NCBI GenBank assembly: GCA_031213475.1
Contig: JARUPZ010000016.1
Location: 5,141,699 to 5,205,698, forward strand
Origin: Nereocystis luetkeana
Taxonomy: Eukaryota; Sar; Phaeophyceae; Laminariales; Laminariaceae
Reading direction: 5' to 3'
DNA: 64,000 bases
The translations under genes and the position numbers were made by a program. This document shows positions 3,972 through 53,236 of the stretch, piece after piece. Position 1 is the first letter of the stretch; each line of letters begins with the position of its first letter. A model generated the notes under the pieces. The model saw only the letters and a program-made list of their open reading frames with translations, was not told the DNA's origin and did no database searches.

Positions 3972-6900
3972 CTGATGGGAGTTGTAAAACAGCGGCAGGT
4001 GGCACCCGGGGGGAAATGGAGGGAGTTGAAGAGAGAAGTGAGGGAGGGAGGGAGGGAGGGAGGGAGGGAGGCCACAAAAAAATGACTAAGAGTACGTGGC
4101 ATGGTACCATATGATACTGAAGGCGAACTTCTCGAAAACGCCGTAACGACTCGCCCCTCCTCAACAGGGCCTTCCTCCAGCAACAGCAGCAGCAGTAGAG
4201 CAAACCCTTGAGCGGCCGCCGACGGCCGCTTCTGGACCCCCCGTGCCCCTCCCCGCTTCCGTTCCCTTCACCCCTGTCCGCAACGCCAACAAAAAACTCC
4301 GAAAGCATCTCTGGCTTTCAACAAGCGCAGCCCCTCCAACCCCCATTCTCCCCTTGGTGGTATTATTACGGGGGACCACAGTTAATAGGACCAAAAATTG
4401 TCAGTAAAAATGGTTGAATATATAGGTCTTCATGTATACCATAGGTCCTATTAACTATGGTCCCCCGTAAGAGTATCAATAGCCAATTCATACCTGGTAG
4501 CCGTCTTCTGCATGAAGTTACAGTAACTGATATGATACATACACATACTTACAATTATCCTTTTCCTAAAATCACTTGATTATAAGCACCTGCCTCACGC
4601 TCAGCGAGTCTCCCACGATTTTTTGTCGCTTCTATATACGATCTTTGCTTTCTTCGCGTTAATTGCTTTCTTTGCGTGCTTGCTTCTCGTGCCACATTTG
4701 TTTCCCCGGAACAATAGAAACAAAATCTCGGAAAAAGAAAAAGTCGATTTTGTTTTTTCAGCGGTTTGGGAGGTTCTCTTTTGCTTTTTTTCACCGGCTG
4801 GTTGAAGTTTCTTTTGCACTTCCAGTTATTTTTTTCCTTTTTTTCTTCTTCCGTTTCGTGTGCGAAGTGTGTAGTCGGAGCACGGCGACGCGGGGGAGCC
4901 CGGCGCCGTCGCGGGTGTCGGCGGATGCTGGCGGGTAGAGGGGGGGTTGCAAGGAGCGCGGTCGCGGTTTTCGTGGCTAGGCGTCGTGTGTGCCTCGAGA
5001 CACAAGGAAAGCATGAATGGGCTCTGTTTTGCCTCCATCTGAAAACTTAGACTGAGCATGTACGAGACCATAAGGGTCATTCGGGATTGCAAGCTAACAT
5101 TCAAGCGGTGCAAATTTTTGCGACCACGCTGAATGAACTATACAGAGACGTATGCCGTCTGACCATCGACATCGTCGAGCTGGCGAACGAGGGTCACGGT
5201 GAGCACCGGGCTTCACGCGGGGCGGGCGACGGGGATCACTGTGACAGAGAGGGAGGAAAGCTTTACCCGGACCGAATCGGTGGCGAGGTAGTCGAGAGAG
5301 GGGCGGGCGGCGTGCGAGGCTGAGAGAGAAGCTCTGCTGTTTTTTTTGTTTTTTTTTACTGGTGCAAGGCGTTCCAGGGGCAGGCAATTATTACATGAGA
5401 GGGGACGTGGATTTTTTTTCCTCTTCCCGAATCTTTCGGTTTCATTTTCATTGTTTTTGCGGTGCTGCTGCTGTGCCATGTTGTGCTTTCTCGTTCGTAC
5501 ATACCAGGTACATACAGCATATCAAAAGAAGAAAATCAGTACCGTACCTGCGGTATGTATGTACATACGTACGTACGTACGTACGTACGGCATGTGACTC
5601 TTGGCCTTATCAAGTCACCAATTTGAAACTACAGTAGCGGGAAGGGGGTAGAAGAGCCTGCTATGTGACCCCGGATCTGAGTCACGAGTTGGTAGGAGAG
5701 AGAAAAGAAGATGTGCGAAGATAATAAACGAGATGAGCGAAACAAAAAAAACAAAACAAAAAAAAACTACAACAATCATAAATATATATATTCAATCATC
5801 GACCTCCTGTCCGCTTCGCGTAATTCGATGTACTTTTTCTTCCTGAACGAGAGTAGCGGGCGGCGTAGGCCGCCCGCGGAGCGAAGCGCCTTGTACCACT
5901 TACTATTTGTTTTTTCTAGGTGACGAACCAACAGAGGCTTGTCAACCTCTGTTAACAGCCTGCCAGGTGTACATAACAGCCTCCCTCCCCCCCTACCTCC
6001 AAAATCCTACCCCCATCCCTATCCTACAAACCTCTTCCTTCGCACCTCCCCTGCCCCCCCCCCAAACCGCCTGATATCGAGTACACCCCCCCTGACGTGC
6101 TCCGTCCCGGCATTGTAGCGATGCGAGGGTCTATCGTCATACGAATACGGCCATGCATGATAATGAGTACACCCCCCCCACACACACAGCTTGCACTCCC
6201 ACCTCCTCCTGCTGCTGCTCCTCCGTTGGCTCGGTGCGGCCCTATTCCCGCCGCTCCGTCGCCGCTACCGCCACCGCCGGCGCCGCCGTCTGAACCCATC
6301 CCGGACCAGCGGCCGTCTCCCGCAATCCCCACCCCCGCCCCCGCTTCATCGTCGTCCTCGTCCGACTCGTTAAAGTACGCCTCGTCGCCGTCCTCCTCGG
6401 CCATCTTGCGCCGGTTTTGCGCCGCCCGGTTACCTCTGCTCGCGATTCCACCGTGCCCCCCCAATAGACCAACACCAACAAAGATGTTCAAAACACGTAC
6501 ACATACACACGAGCCGGAGGTGCGTCATGGAGGGAAAGGGGGGGGGGGGGGGGGGGGAGGGGGTTGGTCAGTAGACAGAAAGCTTGGCTTCATGATGAAT
6601 GATATCATACGTACAAGGTACGAAGCATTCGGTAACCTACGGTGGAGTGTGCGGGCCTTCCGATGACATAAGCGCAAAGGCTAGTTGCTGGTCTCATTAT
6701 GAATATGAAAAAAGCACAGTCCTTCGTACATCATACCTGGTGTATATCAAGTACTGCATATCCCTCTGTCAATCTTTACGGTCTCGGTTCCTATTTGTAG
6801 GGAGCAAAATGCAAAAAAATAAATCTACTGGTGAAGGAGGTCAGAAAGGGGCTCTTGGCCGAAGGCTCTGGTCGCGGCAAACTTGTCGATGGGTAGGTGG

Positions 6901-9900
6901 GCGGGTGAGGTTTTCTATACCGCTTCGTAACCCTGGCGATGCCTTCTTCCCTATACGGCGAGGTGAAACCGAGGTGGCTCTCGAAAGCCCTTCGGAAGCC
7001 CACCGCGAGCGAGCGCTTTGTATCTATCTGGCAGTGGTAGCAGCAAACCGGTTGATGTGAAATACCGCAACGATACTCGTATTTGCTGAAGCGCCACGAA
7101 GGTGTGGTGAAACACGAAACAGAAAAAAAAGGCGCAAACAAAGAGACAGGGCACCCTCCCTCCCCTTTACCCCCCCCCCCCCTCCCCCCTCAACCAGCCC
7201 CTCCGTCCCTCCCCACAAACGCAAAAACTCAAGCTCACCTGCCCCCGCCCCCGCCACCACCCCCGCCAGCCCCAAGACCGCCGCCACCACCACCGTCCAC
7301 GCCGAAGTCTCGATCGCGGTTCTCTCGAAGGTCCACGTTCTGCTCGTGCTTGAGCTTGATGCCCTCGAGGGTGGCCGAGTGCAAAACTTCGAGGAAGGAA
7401 GCCGAGAATCGCTCCACCACGTGTTCCACAAGACTCTTCACGTTTTCTGCGCGGATGAACTGTTCAATTTATGAGGATATGTTTTGAAAAAAAAAAAAAA
7501 AATGGGAAAGGAAAGGAAAGGAAGGAGAAAAAGAGGGAAGGGGGGTGGGGGGGGAGGGTGGTATAGGTGATAGGGGTTGTGAGTGGAGGGAGAAGACGAT
7601 GATCCGTGTCATAGATGATGTATGTGTCACACTCAGAAAAAGAAGGAAGTTTTTCTTTCAGTTGAAGGAGGCATATCTAGCAATGGACAATGGCGTAGTA
7701 CCGCTTTTGTTCCGGTTCGCGTGAAACGACTACGTACACATGCATGTTTTTACACCTTATCTGTTGTACGTTTTCACGTACGGTACCACCGTACCTACGA
7801 CTAAAAAAGAGTACCAGGTAGTTACCAATTCATGCCGTTTCCAGAAATATGATACGGAAGCTTTACTCGGGAGGGGTCAGAGGGTGGGTGGGGTCACCGA
7901 ATCGACAAAACGGGTGGCGTGACCCCCGTCAGGTAGTGCCCGCAGTGACCCGCGCCCCGTCACTCCCCATCTTTGGTACCTACGAGGTATGGTATGGGCA
8001 GCTCTAAAAGGCTAATATGTCCTCAATACTTTTTACCGGGTATATATTGTACATCTATACGAGCATATGCTTTGAACTAGCGTGCCGATGCATTACTGCT
8101 ACGACCAGCTCCAAAACACTTGGGGGGGAAACACACACTTTGAACATCTCTCTCACCCTCACAAGCGCGATTCCCCCAGACCGCACAGATAGTGCATACA
8201 TCAGGGGTACCTCGCAGACAAAAATACAAATCAAGCGTTCCATCGGCCCCGACAGAACTACTGTAGGTCACCAAAAGAGGATCTGATCTGATCTGATCTG
8301 ATCTGTTCCGAGTATGGAAAAATGATGAAACCCTCTCTCACCTCTACGAGCTCGATGACGGCAGAGTTGATCAGGTTGTCACGACCGCGGTTCTCGCGGA
8401 ACAGAGCAAATACAGGCGCCAAGAGGTTGTTTTTCACCAGATACCTGTCACCACAATCACAACAACGACAAAAAGAAGAAAAAAAAAAAAAGAGTGACGA
8501 ACAGAAACGGGCAAGGTCGAGAAACAAAACCAGGCCAAAATTGTGAGTGAAAATACGAACGCATATTTTTCCGGATACAAAACTAAACCGCCACAAAAAA
8601 AAGAGGTTAAAACGTGCCGGCGTTGCTTCTGTTACGAACAGTATCAATAATTTCTATTAATATTATTTGTAAGTACCTGGTGTTATTAATAGTTTCTTAA
8701 TAGTTATTAATATCAACATCAATTATCGTACATCGATATCGATACAAATATCAGTATACACATCGCACTATTGCCGCAGCGGAATGCTTCGAGTATATAC
8801 CCAGATACCAGGTACGGACGGAGCACTCACAAGTTAGCGTCAGCAAAGGATACGTGGTGCAAAATATTCTTGTTCGGGCTCAAGGTTGACATTTTGAAAC
8901 TCTACAAGAAGAAGAAAAAACACCCAGCGAAAAAAAAAAAGAAGCGACAGCACTCAAAAAACACCCAGCGAAAAAAATAAATAAACACCTAGCTCTTATC
9001 GCACCTGTTATAAAACTCGTCCTTGATGCCGACGCAGCTGCGGAGGAAGCGGATGGCCGCGAGTTGGAGGTACCGATCCTTACAAGACAGCAGTCTCAGC
9101 ACCCGCGACACCTGCGCGCACCCACCCAGCCCCACCCGCCCGCCACCCATCGCCGCCGACGCGAGAGAAAGTTCGACGACGACATCGCCATAACCGAGAA
9201 TACATCATCCATAGTTTTATCATCCATAGCCCGAACGAAGCCCATCATCCATTGCGCATCATTCCATCGTCCATCATCACCCATAGTTCCATCATTGCAC
9301 CATCCATGGTCAGTGGTAGCATCACCCATCGCCCATCACATTTCCATCGTTGGTCACCCATCGGGCATTGACCGAAAGAAGATAGATGTACCGGAGGAAG
9401 CCGATAGATAATATTCGAGCCGGTTCGTTCGTTCAGATCGTCGCGGCGGAGCGGAGGTGAAAAAGTTTGCCGGCCGAGATGAAAAAAGAGAACAAGAGAA
9501 ACGGGGGCAAACAAAAAAGGGAACACAACAAGACGAGAGTGTCAAGAGACAGGTTTGCAAAAACAAAGATGAAGCAAAGACGACACGTATAATATCGATA
9601 TACTGTGATAGAGGGAGAGAGTCAAAGCCAGGTTTAGAGATAAGAATACAACACGCCAACAAGAAGACAGCACGAAATGATGGTGATGAAAAAGGAATAG
9701 GCAGAGGCTTGAAAAAGAGGGTAAGAAGGATAAGGCACAAAAGAGACAGTCGAAACAGTAGTAGAGACGGCGATACAGAGGTAGACCATAGTCATATATG
9801 GGAACCGAGAAAAAGCGGGCCAGATTACGCGACAGGTACCGCTAGTGATAGTGGCGGCGGAGGAAAAACAGCTGTGTCCGAACCTGTCTTCCTCGCACAC

Positions 9901-12900
9901 ATACCAAGCGCAGTGCATACAACAAAACAGCACATAGAACACATACGGCACAGAATGCGGACTAAACTCCCCAACCAAGCACAACCGCTCCGGCCGGTAA
10001 CCGCCCCAACCAAGCACAAACGTTTGCACCTATTGTAGAACCTATCGCCATTTCCCTCCACCCTCACCCCCAGCCACCCCCCCTCCCACCCAATCACCCT
10101 CCCCCCCCCCCCCCCCTCCCGCACCAACCCACCCACCCGTGCCTTGCTCTTTACCACATCCACCCCCTACCCCACCCCCCTCCGAATACCCACCACGTTA
10201 TTCCGCAGCACGAAGTACTTCATGCGGAAGGTGTGGCTCCTCACGCAAAACGAGAGCAGGTCGCAGATGTGCCCTCGCGACACCTGGACCATGTCCGATC
10301 TCGCCTCCACCCCCCCTCCCGCCCCCGCCACCCCCGACCCGTCCCCCGTCCCCGGCCCACGTAATAACGCCTCTCCGTTGCTTCCCGCTGGGGCGGCTTC
10401 CCCTGTAGTGGATGGTGGTTGGTGGGAGGTTTCATGGTGAGGAAAGGGCGTGATTCTGCGAGATGCCCCTCTCTTTGTTTCATCTCTTTTATCAGAGTCG
10501 TTCGTTGAGAGCTGCATAGACCATGGACCAGCTTTGAAGCAATGGTTGAAACATGTGGAGGCTTAGACCCTAACCCCGACCGCTTGATAATTTTCTCGGA
10601 ATAAAACTCAATGAGGAGGCAGAACAGTGTGGACCATCAACATTTTCATCAAAACCGGACCAAGCCGTAAACACAAATGCCAACACTACAGCTGTATAGA
10701 CAGGGGCACTACGAACTATACACCACTCTTGTCGTCCACTGCAAGGAAAGTTCGGATACAATATTAACGTACAAATGGTCTTTGCATCTCGGTACAGAGT
10801 ATCACGCTGGACGGAAATGCAAGGACCGCTTAGTCTATACCTGGTATACCAGGTACCAATTTTTAAACTTTCCTCACATTTCCTCTCAGAGCGATGGTAT
10901 AGTACAACTACTAACGTGCCGTGTAAAGGCCAACACACTGCGTCTATACATATACGTATCATAATCAAGCGTCAGCAGTACATACAGCACGTTCCGCCCC
11001 CTGTCGCCGTTGACACGAAAAACGCCTCTTCCACAGACCATGAACAAACAAAAATGTACAAAAAAAGCACGAGGGAAGACACCAAAAAACCAAACCAAAC
11101 AGCGAGAGAGCTATTAACAGCTACGTACCGATATCGGTATGCGTAACCGATATATGGCAGCTACCGGTACCTTCCAAGCCTAAGCCTACCCCCTTGATAC
11201 GTCACCATCACGTCGTACAAACTCCTCCGTGTCGTGACTTTTTCTCCAAACCTGGCTTAGCGACTCTCTCGATACCGCTACGCCTACCGCTGCCGTTACG
11301 GCTGCGGGTACCGTTGTACACGCGTACCTTCTGCCGAAAGGTCTCCGAGCCAGAAGGGTTCGACAAGCCAGTGCACGTAGTGGTCATAAAATATGCCAAG
11401 AAAGGTGTCCCGGTCGGGCTGCCCCTCCATCGTCTCCGTATCCAAAGCCATCCGACAGATCTGCAGTGAGCGGCGGGGGGAAGGGGGTGGGGTACTCATT
11501 CGCTGCTTGCCTTCAAGTCCTTTCACAAATTTGACCACGAATCCATTTTGAGACGGAGCACCGTTCTTGCTCCTACAGTAGTAGTGGAGACACCGACATT
11601 TTGGTCGCTCCTCGCGTTTTTTCCCCCATATATTACCTACGAGACTCTTCGCTTATCTTATGCCCTTTTTTCCTGTGGAAGGGGAGCGTGCGACAACGAC
11701 GTCGACGGAAAAAGACGGCGGCAGCAACGGCTCAGGGTGGGCATGACGCCATCGACCGACGTCCAGCGTCAACCAACACCCACAGTAGTAAGGATTTACT
11801 TTGTGGTGAATAAACAATTTGGTTTGATTGTCCACACTATTTCCCTTGGTCCAGTGGACAAAATTGTTGAATTTCAACAAGTCGTAACAATCACATCTGA
11901 ATGCCAAGAGTTTTCCCAGGCAGTTAGGGTTAAGGTTGGGCTCTACGGTCAAGTGCAGCTCAACCATTGTGTGGAAGCTGGGCCAAGCAAAGCACGTTCT
12001 ACCCCTCTCCTCCTTTTCGTTCCCATCTCATTCGCGGGCCACCTCAATTCCTCGTGTCAACGATGCCTCGAACGGGTTCCTCGTCATGTACATAAGACAT
12101 TTGCTACAGAAACAGCAGCATGCCACCAATGGCGACCCTGCCTGCCCGTTGTCTTACGAAAATAAAATAAAAGCACGCACCCCAACCCCACCCACCCTGC
12201 CTTTCATTTCCTTTACATCACCCAAACCCCCTCCCCGACTCCCCTCGCCCCTCCCGGCTACAACCAATCGATCCCGGTGCAAAATAGTTACGCAAATTGA
12301 ATAAAAGTCAACGAATATCACGATGCCAATAACACGCAAAACCAACACCATCACAGAAACTGACATAAACAGCCTCCTCCGTCCTTCCCTCCCTCCATCA
12401 GCAAACCCCCCCGCCCTACAAAAACGAACGCCATCACCGACACTAACATATACTCCCTCCCTCGATCAGCGAGTTCCCCCACCGTCTCGAAGGGATGCGT
12501 GATCAATCGCCAAATGACCAACAAATGAGTACGCCCAGCCTCCCCCCCGCCCGAAAACCAACACCATCACCATCACCAACATAACATCCCTGCCTCTCTC
12601 TCCCTCACTCACCGGAACTCCCCCCCCCCCACCACAAAAAACAAGACCATACCCCCCCCCCCCCCCCCCTTCCTCCCAACGTCCCAAGCTCCTTCCTGCC
12701 ATCAGCTTCCCACCCCCCCCTCCCCCTCCCCCCCGCGCTCCTTCCAACCCCCATCCCCTCTCACCTCCGCAGCCTGGAGCAGAACACCCGTGTCCTGGTC
12801 AGTGGTCAGCCTTCGTATTACCCAGAACAGCAAGGCGCGACACTCGCTAACCGAGGGGGCACCCCCCGCTCCCCCCCCCGCGCCCCCTAGCCCGCCCCCC

Positions 12901-15900
12901 CCCGCGATCGCCCCTCTTGCTTTCGCGCCCGCCGAACCCTTCGCCTGGTTGCTCACATTAGGGGGGACCGGGGGATGCCCACCGCTGGATCAAGGATTTG
13001 GACGGACGGATGGGGCCAAAGAGCAAAGAGGGGGGGATGGAGGAGGGGAAGCGAGGAAGGGAGAGAGAGAGGCAGGTCGCGGGGAGGTGAGGGGTGAGGG
13101 AGGGGGAAAAGAGGGGGGGTTGCTGTATTCAAAGAAAATAAAACACCACTCGGTGGGGGGGGGGGGGGTGTAGGGGATCGACACATTGAAACAAACAAAA
13201 AAGCCTCCTTGTTTGTTTGAGCTTTTGCCGTTTCATGGCAAACGTTGCATCACACGACACGACACGACTCTACCTCGGGTAGGGGTCGGGGTCGGGGGAA
13301 GAAGAAAATATCACAAGGAAAGCCTGGCCCTCTGCCGGCGTGCATTCTCACATGTACATGCACCAGGGGACAAACACAAACAAAAAAACAAACACAGAAA
13401 AAGAACATTAGAGCAGAGGGGCAGGGGGCGTGAAGCGCGCGAGGGGGGGGACGGGGGGGGGGGGAAAGCTCTTCCATCTGTCCACACCGTGGGAAAACAA
13501 GAATGCACGATACAGCGTCCATGAAGAGAAAAATATCGAGACAACCAAAGTCTATTCTACGATAAACCATATACCTCGTACATGTTACTGTAGTACGTAG
13601 CGACAAAAAAAAACGATGAGTGCTGTAATCTCAACCGATTGGGAAGCGCCGTATAAGCAGGTATACAGCCATGCGGCGCGCGTGAAGCAAAACAAAAGCT
13701 CCTCGGTCCTCTCATTGCAACTCAGGCATAGCCTCCTACTACCTCCCCTGCAGCTTGGCCGGCTGTTTGGCGCGACCGACGCTGTACCCATCACTGTTTT
13801 TCGACATTTTTTTCCACAGCTCTCACAAATCACGACCCACTGTAGATCATCTACCGTAGATGCTAACCGGCCAATGTGAGGTATTGTGGAGGATCTGTAC
13901 CCGTACAGATCCAACCCAGAAAAATCTGCACATCACAGATCCCACCCAGGAAACACTCCTACAGTCGATCATGCAGGTTATACGGCTCCCACCCGCCAAC
14001 ATGAGCTGCAGATCATACAGATCATACAGATCAGGAGAATATCTGCCCTGAACCCTTTTAGGACCGCAGTCCCGTTTTGGGGACAATCCACTTCAAGCTC
14101 AAGTGGTTAATCCCCAGAGCGGGACTGCAGTCCTGACAGGGTTTAAAATATCTACAACAGCGGTAGCTCATGCATTAGGTATCGATGATCTTCCCGACGT
14201 GATCATTCTTTTTTTCCCCGTTCAACTCCCACAGACAAAAAAAAAGGGTTGCTACGTACTGATGGGTACTCACTGCTTCAGGACATGGGTCCGGAAGAGG
14301 GCGGGGTCGTGGGACAGAGACGCCAGCAGCACCTCCATGCAGGCCGTCCGCTCGGCGACCGTGGCTCGTGGATCCCTCAGCACTGGGATGAATACCTGCC
14401 GTCGGGGATCACGCAAGCAGACAGCGTCACTGAAACCCCCCACTATCGCCCTCGCTACCAGCGTAAACATCACCTTCCGTCGTCAGGAAGGCATCATCTA
14501 GGCACAACACACACCCACACCATCACCGTCACCATCCACCACTGTCAGAGTCGATACCAGCAAAGGCATCAATCAGCAGGAGCATCAGAATCAACGTCAA
14601 CATAGCACCAGCATGAACGCCAGCGTCCGCCAGGCATCAATACGCATCGAGACAAGCATCAGCGTATCATCGTCAACGCCAGTAAAAGCCTCATGATCAT
14701 CCCTCACTGTCGTCTCAGCACCGCCATCAGCGTCACTAACTAGCGTCAGCACCTAGCGCAAGCATCAGCACCAGCATCAGCACAGCGGCATCTCCATCAC
14801 CATCAACACCACCGCCGGAGACACAAAACACACGCATAGACCACAGGACAAAATACACGAAACCGCGGACGCGAAATCATGCAGGCACACGCTCTTCCGA
14901 AACGAAACAAACCGGTTCCTCATCACGCCAACGGTGTAGTATATATACCCTAGTAGCTCACAACAGCAGGCGAGGAACTGGACGCTCTAGAACACGATCA
15001 GTCCGACGTACGCACTATTATTATTTTTATTGTTGTGCTGTACCAGGTACCAGGCGCACGAAGAAAAATTGGGTACACTTCGTGCCTGGTACCTCGCTCG
15101 TCTACCATACACGTCACGCTACAGCGGTAGTTTTGGTTTTATTTTTGGTCCTCATTTTCTCTCCTTTTTCTCTCTCTCCTGTTTTCAGTTTTTTTTTCTT
15201 GTTCCTCCCCTTTTCCTCGTCTCACCTCGAAGAAGGGTACCTCGTCCCACAAGTGTCGGTAAAATGCGTCTCTTGGCGCAACCTGAGAAATGAAAAACGA
15301 CAGGCAAACAGCGAGGGACGGAAGGAGCATTTTCTCATAAATGCACGTCATACATCCACCCTTCCAACATATATACAGCATGATCCAAGCAAGATTAACC
15401 ACCACCAATCAACATCAGTCCTGATCGACCACCACCAATCATCAATCACGACCAAACATGTTCAATCATCATCGATCGAAATCAACCATCAAGCACCAAT
15501 CATCAGTCGCCACCGATCGTAATCAATCAACATTCGTCATCAATCGCCACCCATCATCAATCACCACCTAATCACGATCAGGTCATCAGCAATTTAGCGT
15601 CACTGCCACATAGGTTCCCAATTAGCATTTGGCAGCATATTATCATCATTATTCTTACCTGCAGAGTCTTGGCCATGTTAAATAGCTCGCGCAAAAACAT
15701 GAGGACGTCCCGCCGCTTTGCCCCCCCCCGCCCCGTCTCCGGATCGTGGAGTAGCATGAACACGTCGCGGACGTAGTCAGAGTGCTGCAAGCTGTGGCGA
15801 GTGCCCAAAGGAAAAAGGAACATAGGAGAAGATAGGGGAAGAAGAAATGAGATAAAAAAAACACTGATGGGACGAGGCAAGACAGGACGAGACGAGGTGA

Positions 15901-18900
15901 GGATACACGACACGAGGCTCATAACGGGGGGGCGCGGGGGCGTGAATGAAGCGGTCAGGCGGACGAAACAAGACAAAAAAAAAACAATGACTCTCGGGTT
16001 TCCAAGACGAAAACCCGCACTTATGTACACGCACAGATATGGAAAAGCAGGGGGGCCGACACGCTCGATGCCGGTCGTCAGGCGCGAGATTCCCTGGCGG
16101 AGGACGAACAAATAACCATAACAAAAGACACAAATATGACAAGCAGACAGGATAACAAGACAAGGCAAAACATATCACAAGAAAGGCTAACGCGTATGAC
16201 ACGTATGTATGTAAAATGTACAACATAACAGGTCGGCATCCCTTGTCGGTTCACGCCGATGCGCTTGTGTCAACGAAACTAATACAAGAAACACAAGAGA
16301 AAATATATTAAAAAACGACAAACAAAAAAGTCCGCGTCGGTGTCCTTTCTCACCTCTGAACAATCTCCGTGTTATTGAAATAGGTCAAGGAGTTCAACGT
16401 GCCCACGACGGCGTCGTCCATCATGGGCCTAAGCAGGGCGTCCTTGAGGAACGTTATCCGGAAGTTCTGGTGGATTTTTTGCACCACTTCTTCATCCGCG
16501 ATCGGCAAGACCTGGAAGTTGATACAAAATAAAAGGGGGGAGGGGAAAGTTGAAAATGTACTGTAGGACAACAAGATGAACAGCGACAATAAACCGACTC
16601 TCTTGCGCCACAACAAATGCTAAACTGCTGTATACAACACCGGTACGAGCTCTACGGGTTTTGTTAAATCGAACGACTGGGGTATTATGTACATCTGTAC
16701 GTCAGCGCTATATGTGCTGTATGTGAAACAAGTTAAATTTCGGCGCCGGTTACAGTCAGCAGAATCAGGGGAGTTCGGCACATATTCGATCGACACTATG
16801 GTTGACCGCACACCGTGTGGTGCGATCCAATGGTTGATTGGGTGGGGTTAGCGTTGGGGTTTTACATGTTGGGGTCCCCCTAAAAATGCCGGTTAAATCG
16901 CTTGGCACAGATAAGATCAACCAGTGTGAAAATCGTGCGGAATATAATGCCGGTGCCCGCTACGTATACTGCCGGTGTACAGCAGCATTGGCCTGATAGC
17001 TGATAGAGCATACCGGCATCAAAGAGGGGTCTCTATTAATACTACTCTGTACAGCAGTAGTTCTATTCGTGTCCTACACAGTGACCCTCAACCATGTTGC
17101 CGAATTAACGTGGTAAACCCCCCCCAGCAGAATCCAAAAGGGAGCACGTATTCACATCCACAGAGAGTCACATGTGCAGAGGTGGTCGACATTGAGCGCG
17201 GCAATGCCGGCAGGCAGGTGGCGGCAGAGGCAAAAACGAGGATTCATACAGCACATAATCCCCTGGTGATTTGTTCGCATGCTCTTCCTTCTTCAGACAT
17301 TCTTGGCGAAAACAGAATTTTGACAGCATCTCTACTGGCAACCTTTCGTTCGTTTTTTTTCGCACATTTTTTCTTTCTGTGAGATTTTTAGCACGATTTC
17401 TCTATGGCAGTCTTTACAGTAATATTGACTTATTCGCATACGCTTTCGCTTTTGAGGTAAAATATGGTAAAATTTCGCTCTCGGTTCGAATTCTGGGCGG
17501 CCTTACCCTTTCAAGCTCTTCGCAAAATTCCCCTTGCGAGTGCATTATAGCATGATTGCTACATTTCGTTTTTTTTGGCCGACTTCACCCTTGTAGTGAG
17601 GCAGTCCCGTTTAGGGGAAAAACCGCTGATTTTTCAAGTAGTTTGAATAATCTACTCATGTCGGACAGATCATGTTCTACTCTACTACGGGGGACCATAG
17701 TGAGCAGGACCAAACGTTGTTAGTAAAAATAGATAAATATATACCTTGGTATAGTTTTTTTTGTGTACCGTAGGTCCCATGTACTATGGTCCCCCGCAAT
17801 AGATCACCTAGGTCTTAGACCTACGCCAATGGGAAAGCGACGTATCAACAAAAGTTTGAATTTCGAAGACATCCTCCAGAAAAATTTAGAACACGGTCCT
17901 ATGGGCACGTTTAGAAAGAAAAAAAAGTTCCTAACTTTGGAAAAGCCCGAAAAAAGCAAATCTGGGGCCGATGTTGGGCCAACATCGGTTTGAGAAAAAC
18001 TCAGGTCGATCTTTGGTTCGAAGCGGCGAGATTCCGAGTCCTTGACAGACATCGATCGACAAAACCAACGACTGAGTCATGAATTCTGAACAGAGTGCGC
18101 TCGTTAGGGGCTCCGACCGACCCTAGGGTCACCGTCTTCACACCATGGCCGGTGTCATGTGGCGGGAGCTGACCAGGCGTATGATAAAAAAACAATTGAC
18201 CGCTGGTGTGCACAAAACAGAAGACAAAACATTTCCATCCGTCTCAAATGGCAAAAAATAGGCTTTTTTTTCAGGTTTGGGAGGATACCGTAGGACGCCG
18301 CTGGCAAGCTCTCGCCCCCTAGACCATGGATCCACCTGATATCTTCGAGGCCGTCATCTATATTCGTTGGCCTTGTCGGACACAGAGCGGGTTGGGCGTG
18401 GGTTGAGTCTATGTTGAGATCGAGCGTCGATCGTCGCACGAGCTGGTTTCTATCAGCGTGGTGACAATTTGCAACCAGAAAAACATTGCCCCGCCTGCAG
18501 CCGTTTGGGGGAAAAAGAAAAAAAAATCAACCTTATTTTTTCTTTTTTCCCACAGCGGCGGTACGAGGAAATTTTCGGCTGTTCTTTGACAGCAATATGC
18601 TTGAAACAAAAGCTTTTGGACTTCGCGTTTCCATTGGCATAGGTCTTAAACCTGCCGTATGAAATGCTGTGCAGAATCTGCGTATTAATAGTACAGACCC
18701 AACCCGCGAGGAAACATATGCTACTCGGTATCATATGTCATGCACGCTATATATACAGCTCCCACCCGGCAACATGAGCTAGATCATACTGATCATCCAT
18801 ATCATACAGATCAGGTATACATCTGCCCTGAAGGATCTACAGTAGTAGACCATGAAGCGGAAACCGATGACCTGTTCGAAAACGCGAAATATGTCGAGCC

Positions 18901-39895: not shown

Positions 39896-39935
<40 letters not shown>

Positions 39936-42215
39936 CAGTGGTAGTGGTAATAGTTTAATCTAAGAGCAGGACTACAGAGCAGAGGTGATACTAGACATAC
40001 TCATAGTACCTCGAGCATGTTGGGCGAGGACAGGCGCTTCTTGATGGTGCTCTTGAGCTCGATCGACCTCCCAGACACCGCGCCGCCAAGGCGGCCGAGC
40101 TCGATCTCCATGTCGCTCACTTGCTGCACCGCCTCACGCAGGCGACGAATGTCGTCGAGAGCGGCCACCGCCTCTGGCCGGTGGTGGGCCCTGCAAGAAC
40201 CCCCCCAAAAGCAGGGGTGGGAGAAAACAAAGGGGGGGTAGGGAGGGGGAGGTGGGTCACAATGGTCACATATTTGCGGGTAGATGGGGGGGAGGGGTGG
40301 CGGGGGGGGGTTCACCTTAGTCACGCCTGTACGGGGAGGTGGTGCGATAGTGTTACCTACCAGGGAATGGTAAACACGTAAGCACGCCCGAGGTAAACGC
40401 GTAAACGCACGAAAATATTGTACACCTCGGACAGCTCATGATCTACAATAGATAATCTGTCTACCGTCGATCATCTGGTTCCTCGCCCGCCGTTCCTAGA
40501 GGTGGCACAGAACCTGGATATAACATCCACCTGGATATAACATATCCACCCCAGGAACATGGGCTATATCATGCAGACTCTATGGGTCCCACCGGGCAAC
40601 ATGAGCTCAAAGTAGACTGTACAATATAGGGGATAGATCTGCCCTTGAAAGATCAGGATCATCAAGGAAATCGAGGATCTGTTCGAGGTGTGACACATTC
40701 GTACGTGAGCACGTATCACAGGTAAGTGAAAACATGCTGTTTGATTCGATATTCGATACGTGAAACGTGAGTCACGTAGTGTGGCTTAAACCAAACGTGT
40801 CCGATCGACTTATTTTAACGGTTTCGTGATTTCGTGAGATTTCGAGATTTTCGGGCTCAAAATCATCGAATGTCGACTCCATCAGCATACGATCGATTTT
40901 CTGTAGATTTTAGATATTTAGGGGCGATCATATGCGAGTTTACGGCCAGCCCGGCCATCGAACGTCGTATATATTTAAGCAGTACTTGTAGTCTTTTGTC
41001 CCCGGCATGAGAGGAATGTATCAAAGGTTTCATCAGCACACAGGTTATAGTCCAAATAAATAAATTCCCTGTACTCTCCAGATGAACCTGGAATATCTAC
41101 TACTGCTGTATTTCCTGGGGAGTTGCTCGCGTCTATCGGGATCTGGTGATATTGCGGGCAAGTGGCTGAAAAAACTTCAGTTAACTTGAGGATGGCTTGA
41201 TGTCGGCGGCTGATGCCATCCTTAACTTTGGTCGCCATTAGGCTGTGTTGCTGCTGGCGTACACTCTACCGGGTACAACGGAGCAGCAGCGGTAGCAGCA
41301 ATGGCTGCGGCGGCAGCAACAGCAGCAGCGGCAGCAGCGGCAGCAGCGGCAGCGGCAGCAGCAGCAGCGGCAGCAGCAGCACACAACACAGGCAGCGTCG
41401 AAAATAAAAGGGTACTACTCCGTGTGATAATACGAATGAAAGCTAACTGTATCATACTCTCGGCGGCATAGTTCGGGCGGGGGGGGGGGGAGGGGGCGGA
41501 GCTCGGGTCAGCAGCGCTGTGATAGGGAGGGTAAAAGCCCCGTCGATGAGATCGATGCTAGTAGTCGACCATTCACTACTGGTGTCCAGAGCACCTTCCT
41601 CCCTCACACAAAGGCAGGTGGAGAAGGGGGGGCGGTCTATGGTGAGTTTACAGCAGCAAGAGTATCTGACATCACCAGTCACGCGTGAACAAGCGAACAG
41701 ATTGATTCATTGTGAGTGAGCCTTACGTTCAGGGCGAGGTGTTCCTGCTCTACTGACGGGCGTGGATGAACTTAAATTACTTCTATTTCGTCAACGTGTC
41801 TCGGGAATCGGGAGATTCCAAGACTTCGTACTCGTACGCCACCAGTTCAACCGATTTACAATTCGAGCAGCATAAAAGTGCCCTCTCTCTCATCTTCAAC
41901 ATCCTGCCTGCAAACAGTGGTCCGAAAATTCGAGGCGAAAAAGGAACCGGGGCAACAACAGCAACACCACGATCAAGATCACGACGGCGATGATGCCTCA
42001 CTCGACTCGGCGACCAGCACTCACTGCGGTGACACTTGGGAGCGCGCCCCTCCAGCCCCGTAGAAGCCCCCCTGCACGCCGGCCTGGCCTCCCGAGTACG
42101 TCACATTGTCGCTGAAAGTGCGCCTGGCGCCGACGCTAACCGCGGCCGCAGAGGCGCGGGCGCCGCTGCCGCTCAGGGCCGAGATCACCGTGCGCGCTAC
42201 TACTCGCTGGATCAT
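38576..42215 (-). CDS. Small protein with mitochondrial-type presequence, 3 exons, 157 aa
   Basis: Exons 42215-42025, 40190-40010 and 38677-38576, joined at phases 2 and 0, total 474 nt with stop. The N-terminus (MIQRVVARTVISALSG, then more Arg/Ala/Ser and a RRTFS motif) is a basic amphipathic leader without acidic residues, as in mitochondrial presequences. Next come a Gly-rich segment (SGGQAGVQGGFYGAGGARSQ), a probable helix with heptad-like leucines (ALDDIRRLREAVQQVSDMEI), SIELKSTIKKRLSS, and a C-terminus LEINNQPVWGLTQEERELVR ending REKVNSC. I do not recognise the family. The conserved look of the last two exons and the exact frame match argue for a real gene. The length and coiled region would suit a small organellar membrane-complex or inhibitor-like subunit, but that is a guess. 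Confidence 0.78.
39893..39950. repeat. (TAG)n microsatellite
   Basis: About 17 TAG/TGG units in intron 2 of the mitochondrial-type gene. Confidence 0.92.
40010..40190 (-). CDS. Mitochondrial-type protein, exon 2
   Basis: Acceptor TTGCAG|GGCCCA (phase 2), donor CTCGAG|GTACTA (phase 0). Encodes the probable helical segment from AHHRPEAVAALDDIRRLREA to SSPNMLE. Confidence 0.78.
40425..40700. mobile_element. Repeat family C, copy 4
   Basis: CACCTCGGACAGCTCATGAT at the left, GTCCCACCGGGCAACATGAG in the interior, CTGTTCGAGGTGTGAC at the right. In intron 1 of the mitochondrial-type gene, upstream of exon 2. Confidence 0.7.
40975..41238 (-). CDS. Possible 87-aa ORF inside intron 1 of the mitochondrial-type gene
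   Basis: An uninterrupted ORF with balanced composition (MATKVKDGISRRHQAI; FIYLDYNLCADETFDTF), in the same orientation as the host gene. It has no recognisable domain. It could be a nested gene, an alternative exon or a remnant of a mobile element; start context and expression cannot be judged here. Confidence 0.25.
   Translation of the reverse strand: MATKVKDGISRRHQAILKLTEVFSATCPQYHQIPIDASNSPGNTAVVDIPGSSGEYREFIYLDYNLCADETFDTFLSCRGQKTTSTA
41280..41392. repeat. (GCA/GCG)n triplet array
   Basis: Mixed AGC/GGC triplets with no point of decay; reads as poly-Ala/Ser/Gly in every frame. Intron 1 of the mitochondrial-type gene. Confidence 0.88.
42025..42215 (-). CDS. Mitochondrial-type protein, exon 1
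   Basis: Starts at ATGATCCAGCGA, the first Met that gives a clean presequence; an upstream in-frame Met at 42281 would add an atypical 22 residues. Donor CACCGCA|GTGAGT, phase 2. Confidence 0.75.
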
Positions 42216-43077: not shown

Positions 43078-43097
43078 CGACGACGACGACGACGACG
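43078..43097. repeat. (GAC)n microsatellite
   Basis: Six CGA/GAC units. Confidence 0.88.
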
Positions 43098-44145: not shown

Positions 44146-44159
44146 CGCGCTTTGGGGGC

Positions 44160-44278
44160 CGGGGGGGGGGGGGCACTCAAGTCATGCTTGGCGGTAGTCT
44201 TATTACCATAGATCCTCGCCAGGATGACGGAGCACGTCGAGTTTTCACCGACCATGCCGGGGGGGGGGGGTATTGATA
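44160..44278. repeat. Repeat family D, second fragment
   Basis: AGTCATGCTTGGCGGTAGTC, CCATAGATCCTCGCCAGGAT and ACGGAGCACGTCGAGTTTTC between two poly-G tracts. Confidence 0.65.
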
Positions 44279-44866: not shown

Positions 44867-44942
44867 TCGACCGCACCCCATGGCCCACGTTTCGAGCTGA
44901 GCGTCGACCGCATCCCATGGCCCACGTTTCGAGCTGAGCGTC
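44867..44942. repeat. Two tandem 37-bp units
   Basis: TCGACCGCACCCCATGGCCC... and TCGACCGCATCCCATGGCCC... start at 44867 and 44904, differing at one base. The near identity indicates a recent duplication. Confidence 0.85.
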
Positions 44943-45122
44943 TGCTACATTAAATCACGTTCTGCGGCGCACCAGCAACGGTAACATTACATCACGGACA
45001 GCACACAACTCAAGTCCACCAAACTCTCTGCTACCGCTGCTGCATGTTTCTAGACCACGGGTGCCACGCGCACACGTCCATCACGCCGCGTTGTCGGGTG
45101 ACGACGACGCCGACAAAGAGGA

Positions 45123-45224
45123 TTATAACGACGGCGGCCGTTGAAGCACGAAGAGGGTGCCCTTGTTGCCTCGCGCTATCCGCAAGTTCTCGCTGAGATA
45201 CGTGACATCGATCCACCCCTTCAC
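45123..45224 (-). CDS. Fibrillin exon 7 (terminal)
   Basis: Acceptor GGACAG|GTGAAG; encodes VKGWIDVTYLSENLRIARGN and GTLFVLQRPPSL, then TAA. This is the most conserved end of the PAP family. Confidence 0.93.
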   Translation of the reverse strand: MKGWIDVTYLSENLRIARGNKGTLFVLQRPPSL

Positions 45225-48200: not shown

Positions 48201-51200
48201 GGGAGGGCGTAGTCGAGAAGAATGGAAGGAAAACCAAGAAGATTGGATGTCCGTAGAGAAGTTTGGGGGGTACAAGACAGAAGAAAAATACACGATAGAA
48301 AGGACGGAAAGACTGGCGCTGAGGAATACGGTAAAATTGGAGGTACGCTTAGAGATACACGGGGGCTTAGGCGGAGGGATAAGAATGAAAAGGTATTTGC
48401 AAGGCCCGAAGGAGTTCGCGAAAACGCTGAAACTCCGATTTCATGTAGGTGACCTGGGCCTGCCAGGAGGAAGAAAGAGGTATACCAGTAGCCGGGAGGA
48501 GGAAGTATATGCACAGATGTGCCCGTTCGTCAAATCGATAGAGAGTAGAATTCACATATATAGTAGGAGAATGTGACGTGTACAAGAAGGCACGGATGTG
48601 TTTGAAGAGGAGACGAGGGAAATAGACGAATGTAACATGGAGGAGTTTGATACACTAGACAGCAGCGAGAAAACGAACGTTATCCCAGAAGATCGATGGT
48701 GGCCACAGGCGTCGAAACAGCTAGGGCCGTTGATTAGCAAACAAATCTACGTAGTTCATGGAAACAACGTAATGAACACCCGACTGTTGGAGATGTCTTT
48801 ATTAGGAGTAGGAACGGTGCTCCGTCTCGAAAGGGATGCGTGGTCAATGGTCAAATGACTAAGACAAACAACAAACGAGTGGGCCTCTCCCCTGGTCAGA
48901 GGTCAAATGCCTAAGGCAAGAAACAAATGAGCACGCCCCTCCCCCTCCGCAAACCACCCCCCCCCCTCCTCCCCCACTTTCCCCCGTCCTTGGTCGCTTT
49001 AACCATCAGCAGCTCACCTTCGCGGGCGTGGTTTGACTAACCCCGAGGATGTTCAGACCGAAAAAACGCCCGTCTCCTCTCCTCGGCACGAACCCCTCCA
49101 TGGGTTTCGATGCTGTGCTGGCGAGGGCCGTGACTCGCAACTGGCCTACCCGCGGTCCAAAGTCAACCACGTTGGTGACAGTCGGGGCAGCTACCTGGCG
49201 CAGACCGGGGGGGTTAAGGGAGTTGGTTACTCGCATGACCACGTTTCGACCCCCCCGCCCTCTCCCATTCCCCCCGTCCCCACCCCGGATAGCGCCCCCG
49301 AGTGTTATCATGACGCATACATTCATATCTTGGTACGAGTAAAGTCCTTACCAGGTACACAGTGATCCGCTGCTGCACCTGGAAAATAAGGCGGATACCT
49401 GACCCCGCGGTTCTTGCCTTTGGAACGACGGTGGGCAAGTTCGACGCAGAGAAAAATCGCAACCGATCCCTCCCTCCCCTCGCTCGGTGCACATGCAACA
49501 CGAATTATTAAGCCCTTTTTTTATAAACCAATAGTTGCACATGCCCCGCTAACACTGAAACCAACGATCGTACTAATGCGTTTTGCATCATAGCCCATCG
49601 AAGAATTTCAAAGGGCGAGAATTTTTCCCTGCCGCAAAAACCGATACGTTAGCAAAGGTGCCCGCACTCTTGGCGTCGGGGGGGGGGGGGGGGGGGGGGG
49701 TACTCATTTGTTGCTTGCCCTTGCCATTTGACCATTGACCACACATTCCTTTCGAGACGGAGCATCGTTCCTATTCCTAATAGAGGCAACCTCCAACAGT
49801 TGGGCGCTCATTACGTGGTTTCCATCTATTACATAGAAGCCTTTCGCTAGTCCTCTGCCCTTTCTGTTTCGCCTCCTGTGGCCACCATCTATCTCCTAGG
49901 ATAGCGATCGTTTTGTCGCTGCTAGCTATTAATAGTGTATCAAACCTCTCCATGTCACATGTTTCTATTTTCCCCATCTCCCCCTGTAACACGCCCCGTT
50001 CCTTCTTGCACATTTTACATTATCCCACTATGTGGGTTGTACTCTTCATTGATTTGCCACAAGGGTAAATCTGCGCATCTACTTCCTCCTCTTCCCGGCT
50101 ACTCGAATACCTCTTCCTTCCTTCTGGTAGGTCCAGGTCCCCTACACGAAATCGTAGTTTTAGCGTTTTCGCTTAGTCCATTGGGACCGTGCAAGTACCT
50201 TTTAATGTATATCCCTTTTCTTAACCCCCCGTATATCTCTCAAGTGTGTATGCGATTTCACCGTATTTCTTAACGCTAGCCTTTCCGTTCTTTCTATCGT
50301 TCATTTTACTTATGTCTTGTATCCCCCAAACTTAGCCATGCACAGCCTCTTTTTGGTTTCCTCCAATATATTTCCGTGCTTTTTATCACCTTAATCCAGC
50401 TCGTCCTTTTGTAAATTTCTCACATCTCTATTTGTCTCAAGTGGGTACATTCCCAATTCTGCTCCTAATACTGCATGACTCGTCGTACTTGAGCATCCTA
50501 GCTTTTTTTTAGCTGCTATCATTTGCACTCTTTCCAGTTATTTTTCGAACTTCGCATTCCCTTCCCATGATTCTCCTGCATATTCTAGCTTTGGTACAAT
50601 CGCATTCGTTAGGATACAACTCTCAACTCTACAGTAGTGTCAAGGTGCGAGCCTGTTAGGATCGCATCCATGTTGCCTAGGTGTGATTTACCCTTATATT
50701 ACTTTTGCTATGTGTGCATCCCAAGGGCAGTCTTTTGAGATCTCTACGCCAAGCTACGCATAGTGATCTACGATAGGTGAATAATCTTCCCCAATTCCAT
50801 TTGAAAATTACCGGGTTCACCTTATCTTCGTCGATTGCAACTCCTGCGCACTTTTGATGTTCGCGACACGGGGGGGCGGGGGTAACCTCGTTGGGCCTCG
50901 TCAGTTGAGAGCTGAACCCCCATACTGCTGCCGCTCCCGCACCGCACTTATTCCACTTGAGTGCGGCAGCCGCACTTAAGTGGGATTAATTCGTTTCTAG
51001 ATATTTTCACCAGGAGATCACCTCGATCATGAGATACTGCTGAATGCTGTAACACGGCATCGTTATTTCTCCTCAAGAAACCGCCACCACCTCTATCACC
51101 ACCGCAACGACAGCCTGCTACCGTCGTCGTCACGTCCGAGGCTAGTGCCGAGGAATAAAACATACGATGCTGTCGACGGGAGGTGGGGGGTACCCGATAG

Positions 51201-53236
51201 GAGAGATGTACTCGATCTCATGCATGACCTTAGTGGTATGACCATAGGTGGGGGTGGGGGGGGACTAGAGCCGACACACCTGTGTTTCCAACCCTCTCCT
51301 TGCACTGTGCACCGACACCAGCAACTAACGACCCCTGTAAACGACGCGTGCCGGCCGTTTTCCCTGATATCTCCACCGACCTCGGCGTGCCCAACAACCG
51401 CCTCCACTCCCCCGCCGCCGGCGCTTTCGCGCGCTTCTCGCTTCACCTCAGAAAAGAGATCGATGTCCTGGTAGATCGCGAAGCCATCCACTCCGACGAA
51501 GGAGCGCTGTACCGGCGACGCCGTCCCTGGGGTGGTGGTGAAGATCAGCCTCCAGCTGCCGTCAACCAACGGGCTAGAGGCCGCCCCCGAGGCGCCTCCG
51601 TCTCCCTCCAGGACTTCGACCGCCCGATCGAGGACCTCCCGCTGCTCCTCAGTGACATCCCTGCTTGGTGGGGTGCAAAGGAGGGTATTGCGTAGGATGA
51701 TGTTTTGTGGGGCGGCGCTGCTCTATACGGGATGCCCTCTGTTTTCTGTGAGGTTCGATAATGACGGAGTACGCTAGGTGTGCGTGTGTTTGTATTTCTT
51801 GCATTCCGTCAAGCTGGCACACACGGACGGACAAATGAACGAAGCCGTCCGAAACTGCGATGCGATACATTGCCTGCCTTCGAGAGGCGGTCCTGCTGGG
51901 GGTGCCTGCAAGCTTGAACGGACGAAGTTTCGCATGTTCCGGCAAACAAGTATGCATCTCGTGTCTCGCCCCAGTCCGCTCGCGCTGCTCAGAACACAGT
52001 TAGGGAGGGTCTACAGCAGTACCTGCTACCTGGTACCTGCTGAGAGCCATCGACAGAGCTGATTGAAGCGGTCGCGTAGAGGAGTTTATACTCGTACGGC
52101 TCCAAAATAGTCTACCACAATAGAGAGTGTACGAAATAATATCTCATGTACCTGTTACAACCTACTAATAATAACTGCTACCCTACGTAGTGTCTTAACC
52201 CCTTTAGTACCGCAGTCCCGATTTGGGGACAAACAGGTCTAATTCCAAGTGATTTGTCCCCAAAACGGGACTGGGGTTCTAAAAGGGTTCTTTGGGACCC
52301 CCAATATAGCGACCAACGCAATGGTAACTGCGGTGTTTACAAACCGTCTATAATAGGTACGAGCAGCGTGGTTGCCCAGCAGCACCAGTAGGATCAAGTT
52401 GTGACCGTGCCGTACGACTCCTCGCATTAAAACTCGGACGCCAATGTGAGGTGCCCCCCAATCAGGCGGTGGCCGGTGCCGCGATCATCACTTTCTACCG
52501 TCAATTTTCCCCCCCTGCAATCCCAAGAGGGTGAATGGGGTTCACTGCTCAGCTGGGCGCAAACATTGGCTGGACGAACGCGGAGATACGAATGGCACAC
52601 CTTCCCCTCCCACCAATATCTTCGATCGCCGAGAGCAGATCCGCCTCTCGCGCCTCCGCGGCCATTCTCCCCCCTCCTCCTCCTCCTCGTTTTGTCGAGG
52701 GACCCCCAAACAGCCCCATGAAGTTCTCGATCGGGGAGGCGGACGGCGAGGTTGCACCAACAGGCGATAGCCGAAGCGCTCGTCCATTTGGACGTGAGAA
52801 GGCCCGCTGGTCATTTCGGGTGCCGCCGCCGAAATATCTCGACCGTATGGAGCTGCCGCGGGGAGGGCATCCTGAATCCTTGGCAGGAATCGCGAGGGGA
52901 GGGACGAATGCCTAGGGGACAGGGCGAAAGGAGAGAGAGGTTTGGAGAGAAAAATCATGGTGTGATGGCTTTCAATGTTATGCAGCAGCAGTGCCTGTTT
53001 TATCGATGATACGATGATGGGATCAGATAGGCGTGTGAATCATGAGTCGTCACGTCGTCACAGACAACAAGAAGAACGGACTGTTTTCATTCCAAGGAAA
53101 AAAGTCCAACATCAACAAAAATACCGTCTCATTACGCGCCCTCACGCAGCGTGCCTGTGAGGGAAGTCGAAAAAGGTCTCAATACCTGCACTCCCCATGA
53201 CAAAATCATCGTCGCCAGGAGATCTGCGCTGCGCAT
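45123..53236 (-). CDS. Plastid lipid-associated protein (PAP/fibrillin), 7 exons, 329 aa
   Basis: Known family role: plastoglobule/thylakoid lipocalin-like protein binding lipids or isoprenoids, with roles in stress and photoprotection. Exons 53236-53186, 52911-52601, 51660-51447, 49378-49352, 49194-49018, 45915-45808 and 45224-45123 sum to 990 nt with all phases matching. Motifs: EEQREVLDRAVEVLE, GSWRLIFTTTPGTASPVQRS, FVGVDGFAIYQDIDL, TVTNVVDFGP, IDFQFDEAGF, LPFTVPYPVPFRWLGDEVKG, WIDVTYLSENLRIARGNKG and the terminal FVLQRPPSL. The T-x-P-G-T-A-S-P and P-Y-P-V-P-F-R-x-L-G-D-E-x-K-G-W signatures resemble the plant PAP12/FBN10 type. Exon 1 encodes a signal peptide and exon 2 starts AFVPP, giving V-Q-A|F, a stramenopile ASAFAP-like plastid-import site. 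Acceptor choice for exon 6 (AAAAG|GACCCG) is the weakest point. Confidence 0.88.
45531..45633. mobile_element. MITE family A, copy 5 (reversed)
   Basis: Inverted orientation relative to the others: CGGGGGACCATAGTTAATAG at the left, CTATTAACAATGGTTCCCCG at the right, flanked by TA. In fibrillin intron 6. Confidence 0.85.
45808..45915 (-). CDS. Fibrillin exon 6
   Basis: Encodes ARIDFQFDEAGFDFKALPFT and VPYPVPFRWLGDE. Donor GACGAG|GTGCGT. The acceptor at 45915 (ACAAAAG|GACCCG) keeps phase 0 from exon 5; CCGAG|CGCG a few bases on is an out-of-phase alternative. Confidence 0.8.
47080..48950 (+). pseudogene. L1: degenerate LINE (non-LTR retrotransposon), reverse-transcriptase remnant
   Basis: Fragments in shifting frames show reverse-transcriptase sequence: ISEGQAGFRPNRSCVDHVYT, LTTHCFFLNVQKACDTVW, ISETPEGVQQQIEEALECTR and later ILTDSHLDARIERCVLTNV. 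The catalytic YADD/FADD box is lost (FYVG in its place) and several frameshifts are present. It ends with a tail (GGTCAATGGTCAAATGAC) that is itself duplicated at about 48840-48890 and 48891-48940, followed by a C-rich tract. It sits antisense in fibrillin intron 5. 5' truncated; a fragment of repeat D and a poly-C run lie at its left edge. Confidence 0.85.
49018..49194 (-). CDS. Fibrillin exon 5
   Basis: 59 codons, phase 0 at both ends; acceptor CGCCAG|GTAGCT after a C-rich tract, donor GCGAAG|GTGAGC. Encodes APTVTNVVDFGPRVGQLRVT and a non-canonical loop with RRGDGRFFGLNILG before the next family strand. Confidence 0.85.
49352..49378 (-). CDS. Fibrillin exon 4: 27-bp microexon
   Basis: Nine codons (VQQRITVYL) between TTTTCCAG|GTGCAG, with a strong pyrimidine tract, and TACCTG|GTAAGG, phase 0 at both ends. 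It bridges IYQDIDLFSE and VTNVVDFGP at the point where plant relatives carry a stretch of similar length. A TACCTGGTA box overlaps the donor. Confidence 0.75.
49695..50870 (-). pseudogene. L2: 3' part of the same LINE family, opposite orientation
   Basis: On the minus strand it reads ERFDTLLIASSDKTIAILGD and DRWWPQEAKQKGQRTSE, homologous to the C-terminal part of L1 (DSSEKTNVIPEDRWWPQA), with the same tail next to a poly-G (plus-strand) tract at 49678-49700. Lies in fibrillin intron 3 in the sense orientation. Heavily frameshifted and 5' truncated. Confidence 0.8.
51188..51262. repeat. Repeat family D, short fragment
   Basis: CGATAGGAGAGATGTACTCG then ATCTCATGCATGACCTTAGT and a G-rich end; same arrangement as the start of the 55766 copy. 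In fibrillin intron 3. Confidence 0.65.
51447..51660 (-). CDS. Fibrillin exon 3: PAP domain start
   Basis: Acceptor CAAGCAG|GGATGT (phase 2), donor TCTGAG|GTGAAG (phase 0). Contains VDGSWRLIFTTTPGTASPVQ and FAIYQDIDLFSE, the diagnostic first strands of the family. Confidence 0.9.
52195..52290. mobile_element. Foldback MITE family B, copy 3
   Basis: TTAACCCCTTTAGTACCGCA at the left, GGGGTTCTAAAAGGGTT at the right, inner arm ATTTGGGGACAAA / TTTGTCCCCAAAA. In fibrillin intron 2. Confidence 0.85.
52601..52911 (-). CDS. Fibrillin exon 2: transit-peptide-like region and N-terminal helix
   Basis: Acceptor CCCCTAG|GCATTC after a long pyrimidine tract. Encodes AFVPPLAIPAKDSG, a Ser/Arg/Pro-rich transit-like stretch (about 60 residues), a Gly run, and AREADLLSAIEDIG, the first helix of the PAP fold. 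Donor GGAAG|GTGTGC, phase 2. Confidence 0.78.
53186..53236 (-). CDS. Fibrillin exon 1: signal peptide
   Basis: 17 codons (MRSADLLATMILSWGVQ) with a short hydrophobic core, donor GTGCAG|GTATTG, phase 0. Chosen because it is the nearest upstream exon that supplies a signal peptide in frame with the AFVPP motif at the start of exon 2. Confidence 0.6.

Follow-up and report, generated by a model that had tools for sequence, protein, structure and literature searches.

Why does one nine-letter palindrome, TACCWGGTA, recur so often in the DNA of Nereocystis luetkeana? In the window (the whole 64-kb stretch analysed here) there are 26 exact matches, against 0.49 expected from an order-3 Markov model. 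The preliminary description of this DNA had claimed about 26 copies at roughly 50-fold above chance; all 26 are present, at the positions it gave or one base away, and the excess is ~53-fold. When the 9-mers of the window are ranked by significance TACCWGGTA is second, with poly-C alone above it, and among dyads of 4-mers separated by 0-12 bases TACC-N1-GGTA ranks first (31 observed versus 1.2 expected). Across the assembly (465,085,209 bases, 465 Mb, in 1,987 contigs) the word was counted 182,395 times and its reversed-pattern control 1,744 times, a ~105-fold difference, and the genome-wide count that had been proposed as a check therefore upheld the excess rather than returning the background level. 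Chance and base composition are ruled out as the cause by the Markov and reversed controls. The density of the word is 0.39 per kb assembly-wide and 0.41 per kb in the window, indicating that this locus is not special, and twenty 10-kb stretches taken from 20 other chromosomes contained 72 copies. The absence of the word from 53-64 kb, although correctly noted, is nothing unusual, as 3 of 24 10-kb stretches are likewise empty. No matches were obtained when the window was scanned for Rfam families and tRNAs. An excess of TAGGWCCTA is explained, at least in part, by TAGGACCTA within a miniature element (MITE) described below.

The sites, termed scars hereafter, were compared in a sample comprising the window, the stretches of the 20 other chromosomes and six 3-kb loci picked for the presence of TACCWGGTA (282 kb, later 322 kb). 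A single carrier transposon as the source of the copies found no support: any flank was similar elsewhere in the 322-kb sample at 30 of 129 sites, and both flanks at 6 of 129. The observation thus also withstood the second refutation that had been proposed, namely that every copy belongs to one known transposon. Of these six sites, L021:3808, L034:7056 and L011:1501 have a partner that lacks the word; the others are L018:5721, for which the sample held no clean empty partner, L021:9110 and L024:9581. Two repeat units of L021 illustrate the difference, one having the sequence CAGC-TA-CCTGG-TA-TTGTTTT and another CAGC-TA-TTGTTTT. Single-TA empty partners were found for L021:3808, L034:7056 and L012:1501, with that of L011:1501 less clean. 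It should be emphasized that an empty partner was scored for 7 of 130 CCNGG sites and was usable after review for 4 of 130, a proportion that counts against the explanation proposed below; window sites 22355, 22362 and 22369 were set aside because they matched other scar stacks. None of 57 control words had an empty partner, a weak control because these words were not picked inside repeats. The target TA is duplicated at filled sites and single at empty ones, as expected for Tc1/mariner insertion. Judged from these repeat copies, TACCWGGTA is shown to be inserted DNA, the empty locus carrying one TA and the filled locus an additional 7 bp.

The MITE family TTACGGGGGACCATAGT...ACTATGGTCCCCCGTAA, with 22 aligned copies in 322 kb, displays the same TA in both states. 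In four of the 22 an insert occupies the same TA or the adjacent one, and all four inserts differ: CCAGG, CCTGG (the right TA now being TT), CCAAGG and CCAG, the last two in the window. The pattern AAAACCTA-N(3-7)-TATATATTT, which captures any insert at one TA of the MITE (the hot TA), matched 2,002 times in the assembly (control 0), and the empty form AAAACCTATATATTT 10,618 times (control 1); thus, among copies whose flanks match exactly, 16% contain an insert, although some of the 2,002 matches may have arisen by the copying of a MITE that already bore a scar. The insert spectrum was read from 100 filled matches, which were the first by genome order and not a random draw. CCAGG (47) and CCTGG (21) were the most common inserts, making 5 nt the main scar length, followed by CCGG (8), CCAGGG (5), CCATGG (3), CCA, CCCTGG and CTGG (2 each) and ten others found once each. 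A prefix of CCAGG joined to a suffix of CCTGG, the product expected of two staggered transposon ends, explains 92 of the 100 listed inserts. Sixteen fit CCAGG ends alone, whereas none fits only the mirror-image CCTGG ends; the 8 unexplained inserts include a scar at the adjacent TA and a simple repeat. The ratio of A to T centres in the orientation of the MITE, 47:21 rather than 1:1, counts against the explanation proposed below, and the spreading of an already scarred MITE could explain part of the excess of A.

If the ends of the departed DNA were CCAGG, a join slipped by one base would yield CCAGGG or CCCTGG, and not CCTGGG or CCCAGG. This idea arose from the sample, in which 9 slip variants were of the predicted type and 1 was the mirror (0.89 expected for each), and genome-wide counts then served as the test. 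The predicted 6-nt variant, TACCAGGGTA, occurs 11,422 times in the assembly (control 409) and the mirror variant, TACCTGGGTA, 1,578 times (control 362), a 7-fold asymmetry. Random gain of a G would equalise the two variants and is therefore not the cause of their difference; in scars it may account for the smaller number, that of TACCTGGGTA. At G000:C1:1304145-1308362 the variant TACCAGGGTA recurs every 528 bases, with seven copies among the matches listed, and this array is apparently a scar copied through tandem duplication.

At isolated sites the preference in the flanks outside the word is symmetric about the duplicated TA. Among 186 half-flanks, position -1 is A or G in 145 and T in 11, position -2 is T in 79, position -6 is A in 89 and T in 16, and at position -7 G is rare (18). 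A context model trained on part of 97 sites placed the held-out sites at a mean percentile of 0.80 among 16,885 TAs. The preference appears to resemble the target preference of a transposase. Of 100 distances between neighbouring sites 10 are exactly 7 bp, the spacing that would result when a fresh insertion takes the TA of an earlier scar. With respect to decay, the one-mismatch spectrum of the sample was set against 109 exact sites: at T the changes were T>C 20, T>A 11 and T>G 7; at A, A>G 21, A>T 7 and A>C 6; at the first C, C>T 15, C>A 5 and C>G 2; and at the second C, C>G 12, C>A 8 and C>T 4. Transitions lead at three of the four positions but the second C deviates, and its 12 C>G changes, which transitions do not explain, count against the explanation proposed below. 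Assembly-wide there are 184,988 one-mismatch matches versus 64,511 for the control. The near matches described earlier as frequent are in excess for CACCNGGTR and TACCSGGTA, while most other one-mismatch forms are only weakly raised. The scars thus seem to decay rather than being kept intact.

No complete element bordered by CCAGG came to light, either in the 282 kb of the sample or in the searches at the hot TA of the MITE. Among inverted repeats starting TACCWGG in the 282 kb, the sole score above those of random pairs came from an AT-rich stretch in L023, and a 44-bp foldback in the window, the sole candidate shrunken element seen there, scores no higher than the best random pairs and is a possible candidate at most. 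A search for left junctions at the hot TA gave 27 matches (control 3). Inspection of 17 of these revealed no intact element within the MITE: five belonged to another repeat, two were longer MITE scars and ten had unrelated left flanks. The two longer scars are L051 and L058, the only ones of the twelve left junctions L047-L058 to be located in the MITE. The right-junction search gave 50 matches; many of the 34 that were read are MITE scars with a mutated TA, and none of the 34 presented a new shared end, bar one locally duplicated pair. Both junction patterns miss ends that carry certain next bases. CCAGGC(A/G)GTAGTTT.. was considered as an intact transposon end and rejected, as L042-L046 proved to be a different dispersed repeat with a scar-like insert of its own. 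Several copies of that repeat read CTAAAACC-TA-CCAGGC(A/G)G-TA-GTTTGGTGTCAGTC, an 8-nt scar-like insert borne by the family. A profile search of the genome for transposases gave no DDE_3 (PF13358) matches and 28 DDE_1 (PF03184) matches, none linked to the scar; the one DDE_1 locus read of the 28 had no CCAGG ends. The 28 matches are pogo-like and several lie in open frames (for example C35:5112140-5112694, L059).

We propose that TACCWGGTA is, very probably, the excision footprint TA-CCWGG-TA of a cut-and-paste DNA transposon that inserted at TA and had 5'-CCAGG ends. Insertion duplicates the TA, as the empty and filled repeat copies show. At excision the transposase would make two staggered nicks, one at the end of the element and one on the opposite strand five bases inward, leaving each flank with a 5-nt single-stranded CCAGG tail. 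The two tails could anneal through four G:C pairs around a central A:A mismatch, whose repair would give either an A or a T centre. Less tidy joins would produce the observed variants CCGG, CCAGGG/CCCTGG, CCATGG and CCAG. Reinsertion into the TA of an existing scar, followed by excision, would build the 7-bp stacks, as their spacing suggests, and the transition-rich halo around the word is consistent with scars decaying as unselected sequence. The source element itself may be rare, lost or unrecognised.

Several known systems share features with these sites. HIP1 of cyanobacteria is a short palindrome that lies far above expectation across a genome; the kelp word has a similar excess, but differs in being a 7-bp insertion at TA rather than arising without insertion. 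The internal eliminated sequences of Paramecium also have TA boundaries, and their excision leaves a single TA, in contrast with the kelp sites, which keep TA-CCWGG-TA. Passages of PMC4378557 describe how Sleeping Beauty excision leaves three bases, giving the footprints TACAGTA or TACTGTA, and such Sleeping Beauty/Tc1-type footprints resemble the kelp scars in having TA on both sides and an A or T centre; their palindrome is built from the two transposon ends, as that of the kelp may be. The same A:A mismatch logic fits TACWGTA of Sleeping Beauty. The kelp scar is, however, 5 nt (CCWGG) compared with 3 nt (CWG), and the kelp genome, unlike the Sleeping Beauty/Tc1-type systems, contains 182,395 exact copies with no element found. 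In plants, as set out in part of PMC4561436, mariner-type scars are made up of the target site duplication together with element ends, and end joining makes them variable; the kelp scars likewise have a target duplication, probably combined with end bases, and variants of an end-joining type, but their putative ends start CCAGG, unlike the plant Stowaway MITE/mariner footprints, and no family with such ends was found. The relevant passage of PMC7913693 puts Tc1/mariner footprints at 2-4 bp, and the 5-nt kelp scar is therefore outside that stated range, a point against the proposed origin. Scar formation would work like Tc1/mariner excision with 5 nt in place of 2-4; as neither the source element nor a linked transposase was found, which likewise counts against the proposal, the system is only a possible member of the Tc1/mariner group.

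It could be argued that the word is instead the target of a dimeric DNA-binding protein that reads TACC-N-GGTA, its sites being regulatory or architectural. Such a protein would account for the perfect dyad with its fixed one-base spacer (31 versus 1.2), the flank preference and the clusters, but not for a 7-bp insertion with TA duplication, directional scar variants, transition decay or as many as 182,395 copies, and we regard it as very unlikely, although scars could be bound by protein by chance. That mutation bias created or maintains the word, as an iterated palindrome of the HIP1 kind or one linked to methylation, is scarcely credible: the genome-wide excess and the CCWGG core are what this reading would lead one to expect, whereas a word that is inserted, not substituted, and surrounded by a transition halo is not. 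Both a protein-binding palindrome and a methylation motif were put forward in the preliminary description, and neither predicts that copies should differ by the presence or absence of 7 bp that duplicate the TA, or that the variants should be skewed in one direction.

The third suggestion made there, a hotspot for a tiny mobile unit, came nearest in that the word is DNA added at TA; what was added, however, looks like the scar of departed DNA and not like an arriving unit. A unit that inserts itself at TA and spreads, either 7 bp long or in the form of a small foldback with CCAGG/CCTGG at its ends, would fit the TA insertion, the 7-bp stacks and the one 44-bp foldback, but 7 bp provides no room for recognition ends, and insert lengths of 3 to 7 at one TA match an end-joining spectrum, making this reading highly improbable. 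Less probable again is a programmed or semi-programmed, TA-specific DNA elimination with a 5-nt stagger, in which intact elements would be confined to some cells or life stages and absent from the tissue sequenced. It would explain why the scars are so numerous while the element was not found, yet the mutational decay and the coexistence of empty copies are as with fixed old events.

A second palindrome, TATTAATA, occurs 68 times in 282 kb versus 5.8 expected, and its context tends to TAC-TATTAATA-GTA (100 half-flanks). Eleven of the 68 sites have an ungapped partner without TTAATA, and the partner keeps the TA in 8, one of which (window 398) sits in a simple repeat; the partners of L023:2366, L031:3923 and L038:2986 lack the TA. 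The cleanest empty partners are those of L022:4568 (14 partner matches) and L028:6282. From these comparisons TA-TTAA-TA looks like a second, 4-nt excision-scar family left by another element, with a context of its own, TAC-TA-GTA. The window also carries a reverse transcriptase (PF00078) at 57016-58535 (-), which is divided between two frames, along with another copy, degraded, at 46401-47498 (+). For the segment 57396-58535 (-), Ectocarpus proteins were the only named relatives among the 120 matches listed, and no relatives were found in viral contigs. TACCWGGTACCWGGTA was seen in 9 stretches of viral contigs. For a PAP_fibrillin-domain exon at 51096-51722 (-), identity is 97% with a Laminaria digitata protein (across 35% of the query), 94% with a protein having the record name Undpi1 (which points to Undaria) and 86% with Ectocarpus proteins. 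The relatives of the reverse transcriptase and of this exon indicate a brown alga as host, most probably a kelp. Ten further open reading frames of the window had no Pfam matches.

Table 1. Proposed scars, scar variants and associated repeats, by position in the window.
Feature	Position	Strand	Remark
Scar TACCTGGTA	4491..4499	.	exact match
Scar TACCAGGTA	5502..5510	.	exact match
Scar TACCAGGTA	7812..7820	.	exact match
Scar TACCAGGTA	8806..8814	.	exact match
Two adjoining scars	10838..10855	.	exact matches; TACCTGGTA (10838) and TACCAGGTA (10847)
Scar TACCAGGTA	15041..15049	.	exact match
Scar TACCAGGTA	22040..22048	.	exact match
Scar stack, 7-bp steps	22348..22377	.	22348, 22355, 22362 W centre; 22369 S centre
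Scar TACCAGGTA	24388..24396	.	exact match
Scar TACCTGGTA	28706..28714	.	exact match
Scar stack, 7-bp steps	30865..30887	.	30865, 30872 W centre; 30879 S centre
Scar TACCTGGTA	32686..32694	.	exact match
Scar TACCAGGTA	32787..32795	.	exact match
Scar TACCTGGTA	36687..36695	.	exact match
Scar TACCTGGTA	36718..36726	.	exact match
Scar TACCTGGTA	36729..36737	.	exact match
Scar TACCAGGTA	36921..36929	.	exact match
Scar TACCTGGTA	37014..37022	.	exact match
Scar TACCAGGTA	38878..38886	.	exact match
6-nt scar variant TACCCTGGTA	38885..38894	-	other strand TACCAGGGTA; overlaps scar 38878..38886
Scar TACCTGGTA	39178..39186	.	exact match
Scar TACCAGGTA	49349..49357	.	exact match
Scar TACCTGGTA	52027..52035	.	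exact match
4-nt scar variant TA-CCAG-TA	644..651	-	in hot TA region of MITE copy
6-nt scar variant TA-CCAAGG-TA	17742..17751	-	in hot TA region of MITE copy
S-centre form TACCGGGTA	8034..8042	.	
S-centre form TACCCGGTA	27375..27383	.	
S-centre form TACCGGGTA	41267..41275	.	
44-bp foldback TA-CCAGGCGCACGAAG..CTTCGTGCCTGG-TA	15048..15091	+	
MITE copies	near 707, 4473, 17802, 33264, 45527		also in L018, L023, L025, L034 and others
Palindrome TATTAATA	398, 8655, 8684, 8705, 17034, 18683, 34015, 34147, 34160, 36999, 49927		

Excision footprints are usually examined singly, while about 180,000 of them apparently reside in one kelp genome. Among the open-licence PMC papers listed, titles and the opening lines of abstracts mention neither brown-algal scars of this kind nor a TACCWGGTA footprint. 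Transposons of the giant kelp genome were annotated with RepeatModeler, according to a passage of PMC10498591. Repeat annotation would probably overlook scars such as those described here. Among the complex 9-mers of the window none is more over-represented than TACCWGGTA, even though the transposon was not found, which suggests that a cut-and-paste element may leave extensive traces and yet no copies of itself, and cautions that an enriched non-coding palindrome is not necessarily a regulatory motif. If the proposed origin is true, excision, target choice and end-joining repair in a brown alga would be readable from sequence alone.
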